Of a stretch of DNA of 64,000 nt, positions 46,051 to 52,894 are shown piece by piece. Below the pieces are notes generated by a model that saw only the letters and a list, made by a program, of their open reading frames with translations, had not been told where the DNA came from and did not search any database. How positions within the stretch are numbered: position 1 is the stretch's first letter; each line of letters begins with the position of its first letter. The stretch is from Lentilactobacillus curieae. GTDB taxonomy: Bacteria; Bacillota; Bacilli; Lactobacillales; Lactobacillaceae. The translations under genes and the position numbers were made by a program. Location: NCBI RefSeq assembly GCF_000785105.2, contig NZ_CP018906.1:1488001-1552000 (forward strand), read 5' to 3'.

Positions 46051-46059
46051 GTGGGGATA

Positions 46060-46073
46060 TGAAAGCGATATCA
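46060..46073 (+). promoter_or_regulatory. CcpA cre site upstream of PTS genes
   Basis: TGAAAGCGATATCA matches the catabolite-responsive element TGWAANCGNTNWCA at every defined position. It lies about 165 bases before the EIIB start, which suggests carbon catabolite control. Confidence 0.7.
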
Positions 46074-46096
46074 CAGACTGAACTAGATGTTCACAA

Positions 46097-46190
46097 ATTG
46101 GTATATCTCCATCGTCTATATTGGTATACACCTATAAACACCCAATTAAAGGCGATTAAGAGGATATTATGCCTTGCGGTATACCAAAAT
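46097..46190 (+). promoter_or_regulatory. Three TTGGTATA operator-like repeats
   Basis: TTGGTATA occurs at 46098-46105 and 46121-46128 (direct repeats, 23 bases apart) and inverted at 46180-46187 (TATACCAA, inside the palindrome GGTATACC). The core resembles GntR/HutC-type sites, in particular the dre sites of NagR/YvoA as I remember them (ATTGGTATAGA...). TGGTATA could also be read as extended -10 elements, so some copies may be promoter. Confidence 0.55.
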
Positions 46191-46237
46191 ATATGATAAC
46201 CTATATAGGTAACAGGGGAAGAAAAGGAGATATAATC

Positions 46238-46561
46238 ATGAAAAATGTAATGCTATTATGTGAAAACGGAATTTCAAGTAACTTTCTAGAAAGATCTGCA
46301 AAGCGATTTATGGAAATTACTAATGCAGACTTCAATTTGGCTTCAGCGGATGTTAATAATGCTGATAAATTGTTAGATAAAGGAATTGATCTTGTCTTGA
46401 TTGCACCACAAGTTACATATCGGGACAAAGAACTCGAATTAATTGGGGATAGAGCACCAGTAGAAGTAATTCCAGATGATGTATATGGATGGGCAAATGG
46501 AGAACACTTAGTTAAGTTTATCAATAGAGTGTTGGAATCAATGAAGCCACAAGCAGTTTAA
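46238..46561 (+). CDS. PTS EIIB component, lactose/cellobiose family
   Basis: A 107-residue cytoplasmic phosphotransferase subunit. The N-terminal strand and P-loop VMLLCENGISSNFL place the phosphorylated cysteine at Cys 8, as in cellobiose/chitobiose EIIB. VLIAPQVTYRDKEL is the matching later segment. AAAGGAGA lies seven bases before ATG 46238; a longer frame from 46169 crosses the regulatory region. EIIA follows one base after its stop, but there is no EIIC, hydrolase or regulator beside it. Promoter-region sites suggest control by CcpA and a NagR-like repressor. Confidence 0.9.
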   Translation: MKNVMLLCENGISSNFLERSAKRFMEITNADFNLASADVNNADKLLDKGIDLVLIAPQVTYRDKELELIGDRAPVEVIPDDVYGWANGEHLVKFINRVLESMKPQAV

Positions 46562-46562
46562 T

Positions 46563-46877
46563 ATGACTGAACAACAGTTGGCACAACGTGCGATGAGGAT
46601 ACTTACTCTAGCTGGAAATGCTAAGAGTAAACTATCAAACACATTAGATTTATTATCTAACGAAAATGTGAATGAGAGATCGATAAACAAATTATTGAAT
46701 GAGGCTCATGAGTTGCTTGTAAGGGCTCATAAAGTCCAGAATGAAGTAATCAAAGAGGTTGAGAGCATTGATTATTCAATACTATTGACACATGCTCAAG
46801 ACACGTTGATGAACGTTGAAACAATCGAGTTTATGACAAATAAAATGCTTAGTTTACAAAAAAGGAGCGAATCATGA
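46563..46877 (+). CDS. PTS EIIA component, lactose/cellobiose family
   Basis: A 104-residue all-helical EIIA of the Lac family. The phosphorylated histidine is His 77 in LLTHAQDTLMN, matching the HAQDHLM site of lactose/cellobiose EIIA. The AHELLVRAHKVQ helix is also typical. It receives phosphate from HPr and gives it to EIIB. It is almost fused to the EIIB gene (one base between). The terminator stem covers its stop codon. Confidence 0.9.
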   Translation: MTEQQLAQRAMRILTLAGNAKSKLSNTLDLLSNENVNERSINKLLNEAHELLVRAHKVQNEVIKEVESIDYSILLTHAQDTLMNVETIEFMTNKMLSLQKRSES

Positions 46878-47047: not shown

Positions 47048-47080
47048 ATCTAACCCAAGCAATTGGGTTAGATTTATTTT
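47048..47080 (+). promoter_or_regulatory. Terminator-like attenuator in dtpT leader
   Basis: ATCTAACCCAA-gca-TTGGGTTAGAT-type stem (11 pairs) followed by TTATTTTTT, directly upstream of the GGAGGG ribosome site and downstream of a good promoter. It looks like a regulated leader terminator; I see no T-box consensus. Confidence 0.65.
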
Positions 47081-47094
47081 TTGGAGGGTATTAC

Positions 47095-48585
47095 ATGCAA
47101 CAACAAGGTCAAACGGACCAAGAACGTCAAGCTGATGCTTCGTTCTTTGGCCAACCTAGAGGTTTGTCCACATTGTTCTTTACAGAAATGTGGGAACGTT
47201 TCTCGTATTACGGAATGCGTGCTATTTTACTTTACTACATCTACTTCAGCGTAAGTAAAGGTGGTTTAGGGTTTCCTCAATCAACAGCTGCTTCGATCAT
47301 GGCAATTTATGGATCATTAGTATACCTATCATCAGTGATTGGTGGATTTGTCAGTGACCGAATTTGGGGAAGTCGAAAGACCGTATTTTACGGTGGTGTC
47401 TTGATCATGCTTGGTCACATCGCCCTATCATTACCAATGGGTGCGGTTGCGTTATTCGCATCAATTGCATTGATTGTTATCGGTACTGGTTTACTTAAAC
47501 CAAATATTTCCGAAATGGTTGGTGGTTTGTATACGGAATCTGATTTACGTCGTGATTCTGGGTTCACCATTTTCGTCTTCGGAATTAACTTAGGATCATT
47601 CGTTGCTCCTATCTTGGTTGGTAAATTAGGAATGGACGTTAACTTCCACCTTGGCTTTTCTCTTGCCGCTATCGGAATGTTCTTTGGATTGTTACAGTAC
47701 TACTTAGGTGGTAAAAAACACCTTCCTAGTTCAAGTTTGTATCCAAGCGATCCATTAGAACCAGACGATGCTAAGAAATTGTCAGTTAGAGTTGGTATTG
47801 GTGTAGTTATCTTTGGTTTGGTACTATTGCTACTTGCCTTTATGGGTGCGCTTAACATTGATAACTTTATTTCATTGCTTAGTGTGATTGCCATTGCCAC
47901 ACCTGTCGTATACTTTATTATGATGATTTCAAGCAAGAAAGTTACTAGTACTGAACGTTCGAGAGTTATTGCTTATATTCCTTTATTTATTGCCGCTGCT
48001 GTTTTCTGGGCAATTGAGGAACAAGGATCAGTTGTGCTAGCATTATTCGCACAGGACCAAACTAATAATAATTTGGGATTCTTTAATATCCCTGCTGCTT
48101 GGTACCAATCACTTAATCCATTCTTCATCATGCTATACACACCATTGTTTGCATGGTTATGGACTAAATTAGGCAAGAAACAACCAAGTTCTCCAGGTAA
48201 GTTCTCAATCGGAATGGTGATTGCTGGGCTTTCATACCTATTTATGGTAATTCCGGTTATGCTATTCGGAACTTCAGCAAAAGTTAGTCCATTATGGCTA
48301 ATCGGAAGCTGGGCAATCGTTGAAATTGCTGAATTATTGATCTCACCAATTGGTCTTTCAGTAACTACTAAACTTGCTCCTAAGTCATTCGAATCACAAA
48401 TGATGAGTATGTGGTTCTTAGCCGATTCTGCTGGTCAAGCCGTTAACTCACAAATCGTTAAATTTTACACTCCAGGTAACGAAGCAAATTACTTTACCAT
48501 TGTTGGTTTAGTTGCAATCGTTGCTGGTATTGTGCTCTTTATGCTGATCAAACCAATCAAGCGATTGATGGAAGGCGTAAATTAG
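47095..48585 (+). CDS. dtpT: Proton-dependent di/tripeptide transporter (POT family)
   Basis: A 496-residue importer of di- and tripeptides. N-terminal [21 protein letters not shown] carries the POT motif ExxERFxYY; about 14 membrane segments follow; the PTR2 signature is in [20 protein letters not shown]. The ATG is preceded by GGAGGG. Peptide uptake is central for amino-acid-auxotrophic lactobacilli, which fits a regulated leader. Confidence 0.95.
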
Positions 48586-49536: not shown

Positions 49537-49619
49537 GGAGGGGTAGCGAAGTCTGGCTAAACGCGGCGGACTGTAAATCCGCTCCTTCGGGTTCGGTGGT
49601 TCGAATCCACTCCCCTCCA
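49537..49619 (+). tRNA. tRNA-Tyr(GTA), copy 1
   Basis: 83 bases with the long variable arm of tRNA-Tyr, acceptor GGAGGGG/CCCCTCC, anticodon arm GCGGA-CTGTAAA-TCCGC. Identical to copy 2. CCA is not encoded. Confidence 0.96.
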
Positions 49620-49626
49620 TTTTTAT

Positions 49627-49698
49627 TGGGCTATAGCCAAGTGGTAAGGCAACGGGTTTTGATCCCGTGATGCGCTGGTTCGAACCCAGCTAGCCCAA
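49627..49698 (+). tRNA. tRNA-Gln(TTG), copy 1
   Basis: 72 bases, acceptor TGGGCTA/TAGCCCA, anticodon loop TTTTGAT with anticodon TTG. Identical to copy 2. Confidence 0.96.
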
Positions 49699-49710
49699 TT
49701 GTTACGCCTT

Positions 49711-49954: not shown

Positions 49955-50037
49955 GGAGGGGTAGCGAAGTCTGGCTAAACGCGGCGGACTGTAAATCCGC
50001 TCCTTCGGGTTCGGTGGTTCGAATCCACTCCCCTCCA
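49955..50037 (+). tRNA. tRNA-Tyr(GTA), copy 2
   Basis: Same 83 bases as copy 1, located 418 bases downstream of it. Confidence 0.96.
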
Positions 50038-50047
50038 TTTTCATTAT

Positions 50048-50119
50048 TGGGCTATAGCCAAGTGGTAAGGCAACGGGTTTTGATCCCGTGATGCGCTGGT
50101 TCGAACCCAGCTAGCCCAA
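50048..50119 (+). tRNA. tRNA-Gln(TTG), copy 2
   Basis: Same 72 bases as copy 1; the gap from tRNA-Tyr is ten bases here and seven in copy 1. Confidence 0.96.
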
Positions 50120-50125
50120 CTACTA

Positions 50126-50158: not shown

Positions 50159-50206
50159 GTTTTGGTTGCAAATTATCCAATTATCGGATAAAGTCAAATT
50201 ATAAGA

Positions 50207-50222
50207 ATTGGCATAGACAAAT
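50207..50222 (+). promoter_or_regulatory. dre-like operator before proC-nagA-nagR
   Basis: ATTGGCATAGACAAAT closely resembles the NagR/YvoA dre operators (ATTGGTATAGA-type). It lies between a possible -10 (TATAAG, 50200-50205) and the ribosome site, where a bound repressor would block transcription. The operon ends with a NagR-type gene, so autoregulation is likely. Confidence 0.6.
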
Positions 50223-52189: not shown

Positions 52190-52894
52190 ATGGGCTTACC
52201 AATTTATATTAAAATTCATAACGAGATTAAGAGAAATATCGAAGCAAGCAAGTGGAAAGTCGGTGACAGAATCCCTTCTGAGCGAGAACTTTCTGCTGAT
52301 TTTGGAGTAAGCCGAATGACGCTTCGTCAAGCCATTCAAACTTTAGTAGACGAAGGAATCCTTGAACGTCGAGTTGGTTCCGGTACCTTTGTCGCTAACC
52401 AAAAGGTTCAAGAGAAGATGGCAGGTGTGACTGGGTTTACTGACTTGATGCTTGCACAAGGTAAGCAGCCATCTTCTAAAACGATTTCTTACCACACAAT
52501 GGAACCTTCACTATCAGAAATGGAAAAGTTAAACATTAAGGAAACTGATCTAGTGCTACGGATGGAACGAATCCGGTATGGAGATAACGTTCCGATTTGT
52601 TTTGAGGTGGCAACGGTTCCGGAGAACATTATTGAGGGGCTTGATAAAGCGGAGGTAACCAGCTCACTTTACCGTTCACTAGAACAAAAAAAGGGATTAG
52701 TTTTGGGGAAAGCCAAGCAAACCGTTTCAGCGATGTTGGCCTCTGAAAGAATTTCAGAATTTTTGGATATCAAACGTGGTGATCCAATTTTACGTCTACG
52801 TCAAATTACTAATCTGCAAGACGGCCGACCATTTGAATACGTTCGGACTCAGTATGTGGGCGAACGATTCGAGTTCTATTTGGAAAAAGAATAG
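52190..52894 (+). CDS. nagR: GntR-family (HutC type) regulator, NagR/YvoA-like
   Basis: A 234-residue repressor with an N-terminal winged helix (about 5-72; GDRIPSERELSADFGVSRMT and RQAIQTLVDEGILERRVGSG) and a C-terminal UTRA ligand domain (about 85-232). NagR homologues bind GlcN-6-P or GlcNAc-6-P. AAGGAG precedes the ATG. Being last in the nagA operon, with a dre-like site upstream, supports the NagR call over other HutC proteins such as treR or bglR. Confidence 0.85.
   Translation: MGLPIYIKIHNEIKRNIEASKWKVGDRIPSERELSADFGVSRMTLRQAIQTLVDEGILERRVGSGTFVANQKVQEKMAGVTGFTDLMLAQGKQPSSKTISYHTMEPSLSEMEKLNIKETDLVLRMERIRYGDNVPICFEVATVPENIIEGLDKAEVTSSLYRSLEQKKGLVLGKAKQTVSAMLASERISEFLDIKRGDPILRLRQITNLQDGRPFEYVRTQYVGERFEFYLEKE

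Follow-up and report, generated by a model that had tools for sequence, protein, structure and literature searches.

The stretch of Lentilactobacillus curieae DNA analysed here (64,000 nucleotides, hereafter the window) carries a two-gene PTS EIIB-EIIA operon which, judged from its sequence and those of its relatives, is probably a transporter-independent pair within the NagR regulon of Lentilactobacillus that is drifting from phosphocarrier to non-catalytic regulator. Kin of the pair persist in three groups of lactic acid bacteria in which a matching transporter is usually not found, which suggests that these proteins now regulate rather than transport. This explanation is built on the genes themselves, the lack of a recognisable Lac-family EIIC, the conservation of the locus, the similarity of its operators to those of nag genes, the selection acting on EIIB and the presence of Enzyme I (PF05524) in all 35 genomes searched.

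A preliminary description of this DNA had reported a two-gene unit with intact Cys8 and His77 and without an EIIC, hydrolase or regulator beside it, and the coordinates, Pfam matches and residues bear this out (Table 1): no EIIC, hydrolase or regulator was found adjoining the pair, the nagR gene lying further off. Both proteins match their Pfam families (EIIB, PTS_IIB, PF02302, 26.4 bits vs. a cut-off of 23.6; EIIA, PTS_IIA, PF02255, 69.3 bits vs. 27), and both are divergent, since they fall below the stricter NCBIfam Lac-family cut-offs (39.2 of 110 bits for EIIB with TIGR00853, 46.8 of 136.95 bits for EIIA). The predicted model of window EIIB (pLDDT 81.8) matches 1iib in Foldseek with an E-value of 3.1e-6, and also 2wy2, and the EIIB profile matches 2l2q, 1h9c and 2wy2. 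EIIA, the only PF02255 EIIA in the genome (2.096 Mb, single contig), is of the Lac type and not of the IIANtr type, and so falls outside PTSNtr; EIIANtr belongs to a family other than Lac. The His77 of window EIIA corresponds in the alignment to the first His of HAQDH, and HAQDHLM has become HAQDTLM, with Thr in place of the usual second His. Upstream of window EIIB are 5S rRNA, tRNA-Asn and tRNA-Thr, and downstream of EIIA, at 47095, is a POT-family transporter gene (PTR2 match; here labelled dtpT), whose leader carries a terminator-like hairpin (47048-47073) directly upstream of the gene.

Table 1 Features of the EIIB-EIIA and nag loci in the window.
Feature	Position in window	Strand	Basis or remark
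Cre-like sequence, ATGAAAGCGATATCA	46059..46073	+	pattern match
Distal operator D1, ATTGGTATA	46097..46105	+	sequence and matrix score
Distal operator D2	46120..46128	+	23 bp from D1; sequence and matrix
Proximal operator overlapping -35, TTGCGGTATACCAA	46174..46187	+	sequence
Promoter TTGCGG-17-TAACCT	46174..46202	+	inferred from comparison across three genera
Lac-family PTS EIIB	46238..46561	+	107 aa; Cys8 and P-loop intact
Lac-family PTS EIIA	46563..46877	+	104 aa; His77
Dre-like operator of proC-nagA-nagR operon, ATTGGCATAGACAAAT	50207..50222 (matrix match at 50204)	+	
nagR, GntR/HutC regulator (GntR + UTRA)	52190..52894	+	proposed regulator of the EIIB-EIIA operon

Each of the 24 Lentilactobacillus genomes, L. 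curieae included, has one copy of EIIB as one open frame, and EIIA follows it directly in 22. Of 397 genomes of the family, 66 were matched by a profile of the 24 EIIBs (E<=1e-12); 59 of these belong to three genera (24 Lentilactobacillus, 23 Levilactobacillus and 12 Secundilactobacillus) and the other 7, with weaker matches, lie elsewhere; at least one Secundilactobacillus genome (G042) gave no match at this threshold. We took 40 of the 42 matches from outside Lentilactobacillus, omitting two that each carry a stop (G151, G325), and set aside as other EIIBs those of G364, G057, G206, G101 and G356. A scan with one peptide pattern, which sets the limit for any claim of absence from other genera, gave 61 loci, all of them in these genera or in relatives falling among or beside them in a dtpT tree. 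The next gene is dtpT in 60 of the 61 (the remaining locus ends first), and the usual order, where the locus is long enough, is EIIB(-EIIA)-dtpT-metallophosphoesterase-proC-nagA-nagR. By BLAST, at least one of the window's 23S end, 5S, tRNA-Asn and tRNA-Thr precedes EIIB in the same orientation at 48 of the 61 loci. Among the 13 without such a match, four (L185, L189, L194, L195) have none within 8 kb and truly lack a nearby rRNA or tRNA, because that much upstream sequence is present, and the others have 261-1509 bases of upstream sequence. Our literature search found no paper on the EIIB-EIIA pair.

The locus varies in a graded manner among species. With the window included there are 62 loci, 30 of which have EIIA (counting L217 and the hilgardii EIIA, which looks truncated), all with Cys8, and 32 of which do not; position 8 is Cys in 44 and Ser in 18. 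The loci without EIIA are 12 from Secundilactobacillus with an intact Cys loop, which counts against the proposed reading, 18 from Levilactobacillus with Ser8, and parabuchneri and UBA5807, where Cys8 sits in a degenerate loop. Distal operators are kept in 17 of the 18 Ser8 Levilactobacillus loci. Median omega is 0.076 in the Ser8 group (33 unsaturated pairs), 0.035 in Cys8 Levilactobacillus (27 pairs), 0.13 in Secundilactobacillus (39 pairs) and 0.21 in Lentilactobacillus (107 pairs), and these low values show that EIIB is maintained by purifying selection, also where Cys8 is missing. On a dtpT tree of the 61 loci, which cannot separate gain from loss and does not contain raoultii (L182, no dtpT in its locus), the minimum numbers of changes are 6 for EIIA, 4 for Cys8 and 6 for loop integrity. 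Among the independent pairs that lie on supported branches, 3.5 of 4 show the loop following EIIA and none the reverse, a number too small for significance. Residues invariant in a 38-row family alignment include P79, Y83, W85, N87, L91 and K93. If the absences are losses, the series may be read as loss of EIIC, then EIIA, then the catalytic Cys, an order that we infer, while the putative NagR-type promoter and an IP(D/N)xxYxWxN motif appear to stay fixed.

With a matrix built without the sites of L. curieae itself, D1 (score 18.5) ranks first and D2 (16.9) second of 127,970 window positions. The three core copies that had been described upstream of EIIB, one of them inverted, are indeed there: TTGGTATA occurs at 46098 and 46121 on the plus strand and at 46180 on the minus strand, the last within GGTATACC. 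We rejected this 8-mer alone as evidence, since it is not enriched genome-wide (95 copies vs. 123 for the reversed control) and is not a rare word (5 in the window vs. 2.3 expected); some intergenic copies are extended to TTGGTATAAT or a like sequence and could belong to promoters of the extended -10 kind. The paired arrangement ATTGGTAY-N14..17-ATTGGTAY is upstream of EIIB in 18 of 24 Lentilactobacillus genomes and in two other places across all 24, the reversed control occurring once, so that it is almost confined to this promoter. When spacing is left free (N5..34), TTGGTATA pairs precede EIIB in 13 genomes and occur in 3 other places (control 4), and inverted arrays of TTGGTATA and TATACCAA occur in one place in the 24 genomes, other than the EIIB promoter. 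At least one distal site is present in 57 of the 62 loci and at least two in 38; in all 38 the last two are 22-24 bp apart, and the -35 pattern TTG[TC]GGT[AC]TA is found in 55 of the 62. The sites for the matrix were gathered by a fixed ATTGGTA[TC] pattern, so that the invariance of this core is partly by construction. In the Lentilactobacillus distal sites the right half of a full dre is weakly represented (+4 C in 12 of 42), and most EIIB sites are not a symmetric dre with both half-sites; a B. subtilis-like dre string served for comparison. In G011, nagR is kept and the EIIB sites are absent, which speaks against NagR as their reader, as does the weak right half. The EIIB promoter does not appear in the list of a generic sigma-70 scan. 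Helical phasing of the distal sites relative to the -10 element (permutation p 0.067 with five spacing classes assigned by hand; p 0.003 if 12 lineages are taken as independent) is only suggestive, and we rejected it as proof of looping. As to the perfect cre reported upstream, the match is real, but it is not conserved: the pattern has 4 matches in the window vs. 1.57 expected, and in the 23 relatives from the same genus a search of up to 320 bp before EIIB found no cre (the L006 stretch being partly N). CcpA control through this element was rejected on that ground, and the cre-like sequence is probably incidental or species-specific.

The regulator proposed to read these operators, NagR, is encoded in all 24 Lentilactobacillus genomes (80-93% identical) with an invariant recognition helix, SRMTLRQA; NagR proteins, 75-93% identical to that of the window, are more conserved than EIIB or nagA. 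A matrix from the EIIB sites of other genomes places the nag operon site third of the 127,970 window positions, after D1 and D2. When each genome is left out in turn, the best-scoring position of a nag locus is a site in the proC, nagA or nagR promoter in 16 of 23 cases, and such a site is among the best two in 19; the remaining four genomes have no nagA at this place. A matrix of 39 EIIB sites from Levilactobacillus and Secundilactobacillus ranks the proC/nagA promoter first in 18 of the 23 Lentilactobacillus loci, namely 17 of 18 with nagA and 1 of 5 without; 300 column-shuffled matrices, a control that leaves the relatedness of the 23 loci in place, gave on average 1.2 and at most 8 such loci, and the reversed matrix gave 0. 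By these matrix comparisons a dre-like operator is common to EIIB and the nag genes. Five congeners (L058, L059, L060, L061, L071) have a nagR that is 85-88% identical, although the stretch of about 4.8 kb searched at this gene showed no nagA between it and proC; in L059-L061 the dre-resembling TGATCTAGACCTC precedes nagR itself. Upstream of proC in the window, a tRNA-Tyr/tRNA-Gln cassette is tandemly duplicated (49537-49699 and 49955-50120).

The preliminary description had suggested a genome-wide operator search, and of the 95 TTGGTATA sites that it returned the best (score 22.0), seen in one genome only, is 35 bp upstream of the glmS start codon. This gene is recognised by the match of its first 155 aa to NCBIfam glmS (184 bits). 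The 90 sites outside the window divide, under our ORF rule, into 64 inside genes and 26 between them. Besides the one at glmS (L336), high-scoring ATTGGTATA sites precede genes for an ammonium transporter, triosephosphate isomerase and a LacD-family aldolase (L292, L333, L321), and another is upstream of an FGGY-family kinase gene (L280). Three NagR sites are described in pneumococcal PglmS, of which sites 1 and 3 were shown by mutation to be active (PMC5110562). Taken from the reverse strand, these two are AAATTGGTATAGTTCAAATT and AAATTGGTATAGTCTAATTC, and with the EIIB matrix they score as the best window sites do (0 and 1 of 127,970 positions as high); dre2 of PglmS and the PnagA site score poorly, and PnagB moderately, at 14.5 in one orientation. 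Native Bacillus dre sites are likewise described as not perfectly palindromic (PMC4333415). Recovery of the nag operon site by EIIB matrices, the universal presence of nagR, and the matching glmS and pneumococcal PglmS sites together argue that the operators are of the NagR type, as had been proposed.

In the preliminary description, EIIB and EIIA were taken to work in chitobiose or GlcNAc uptake with an EIIC whose gene lies elsewhere, a model that we now regard as quite unlikely. Our EIIC searches covered the families TIGR00410 and PF02378. The L. curieae genome has no TIGR00410 match and so no recognisable Lac-family EIIC to complete a Lac-family PTS transporter; it has one PF02378 EIIC, of the sucrose/trehalose type, and this lone 399-aa domain without B or A parts (L002:1435-2634; G000:C1 about 423.5 kb) could be counted in favour of a hidden transporter. 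EIIC frames of about 400-440 aa occur in several congeners too. The same model could draw on 7 of the 24 Lentilactobacillus genomes, where a weak TIGR00410 match marks an unlinked Lac-like EIIC of about 410 aa (L027-L033; a PF02378 protein in the one scanned) and neither EIIA nor EIIB was seen beside it; it adjoins a gene resembling a hydrolase, which proved to be DUF915 in the single case scanned. However, none of these seven has a strong NagR-type site at the EIIC start, and parabuchneri (G013) has the Lac-like EIIC but no EIIA. An EIIC encoded elsewhere fails as a general explanation because a TIGR00410 match is absent from 17 of the 24 genomes (and in none of the 24 exceeds the family cut-off) and a PF02378 match from 8, although all 24 keep EIIB and 22 keep EIIA; moreover, the phosphorylatable Cys is missing from the 18 Ser8 EIIBs.

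It is doubtful, though less so, that the operators are read by another regulator of similar specificity rather than by NagR. The half-site character of the EIIB sites would fit such a protein, as would the proC operator, which is GGAATAGTCC in 11 Lentilactobacillus genomes while their EIIB sites stay GGTATA and the NagR recognition helix is identical; the GntR members NagQ and NanR are described as reading TGGTATT/TGGTATAW direct repeats (PMC4494728). Against this stands the transfer of the matrix across genera to nag promoters. A rival HutC regulator with the same sites was also looked for, among UTRA proteins, but no TTGGTATA array lies close to the one further UTRA group found in every one of the 24 genomes; we rejected this group as the reader of the sites, its TGGTATACT probably being an extended -10. 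Finally, the absence of EIIC, EIIA and Cys8 in an overlapping series, together with the apparently truncated hilgardii EIIA, could mean that the pair is a functionless, decaying remnant of a Lac-type PTS that has been lost. We consider this very improbable given a single open EIIB frame in each of the 24 Lentilactobacillus genomes, low omega in every group including Ser8, and the retained promoter and operators.

We therefore return to a regulatory EIIB-EIIA pair. The operon would be a member of a NagR regulon responsive to GlcN-6-P/GlcNAc-6-P, with relatives in Secundilactobacillus and Levilactobacillus. NagR may bind asymmetric, glmS-type dre sites, two of them distal at a spacing of 22-24 bp and the third over the -35 element, and would repress the EIIB promoter or, with GlcN-6-P, modulate it, repression probably occurring via cooperative or looped binding. 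Window EIIA and EIIB are probably still phosphorylatable by the general PTS, and the Ser8 Levilactobacillus EIIB probably is not. With no EIIC to take the phosphate, the pair could serve as a regulatory link from PEP/sugar status to amino-sugar metabolism, and because EIIA and the catalytic Cys are gone elsewhere while the gene and its operators stay, the surviving function may be protein binding. GlmS or NagR as the direct target of EIIB is our working hypothesis, drawn by analogy. The wider proposal, that across the three genera EIIB is giving up its phosphocarrier role to become a regulator of amino-sugar homeostasis without catalytic function, with GlmS, NagR or another protein as partner, is tentative and in our estimate rather unlikely to hold in full.

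The EIIB-EIIA loci are an unusually clear comparative series, and since species range from EIIB-EIIA through EIIB alone to EIIB without Cys, the role of a phosphate-free EIIB can be asked directly. They would represent a transporter-less PTS pair tied to amino-sugar sensing in bacteria often without a PF02378 EIIC, and a NagR-regulated EIIB could account for the retention of nagR in genomes without an adjacent nagA. In fold and active-site residues the window pair resembles EIIB and EIIA of the cellobiose and N,N'-diacetylchitobiose PTS; unlike those, it has no Lac EIIC found in its genome, scores below the NCBIfam cut-offs and has HAQDTLM, and its relatives include EIIBs with Ser at position 8. 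With the NagR (YvoA) regulon, including streptococcal nagA, nagB and glmS, the locus has in common NagR and an ATTGGTATAG-like core, and pneumococcal PglmS, like the EIIB promoter, has three sites, one of which falls on the core promoter (PMC5110562). In contrast to known NagR regulons, the putative target here is a PTS EIIB-EIIA operon, none such having been found in our literature search. Lastly, EIIANtr is reported to inhibit GlmS in Salmonella in a phosphorylation-dependent manner, and is a PTS protein acting in amino-sugar homeostasis outside a sugar transporter, much as may be the case for EIIB (PMC5024086). Unlike in Salmonella, the GlmS interaction is here postulated; if true, the pair would be a Lac-family counterpart of EIIANtr-GlmS in lactobacilli, with living intermediates.
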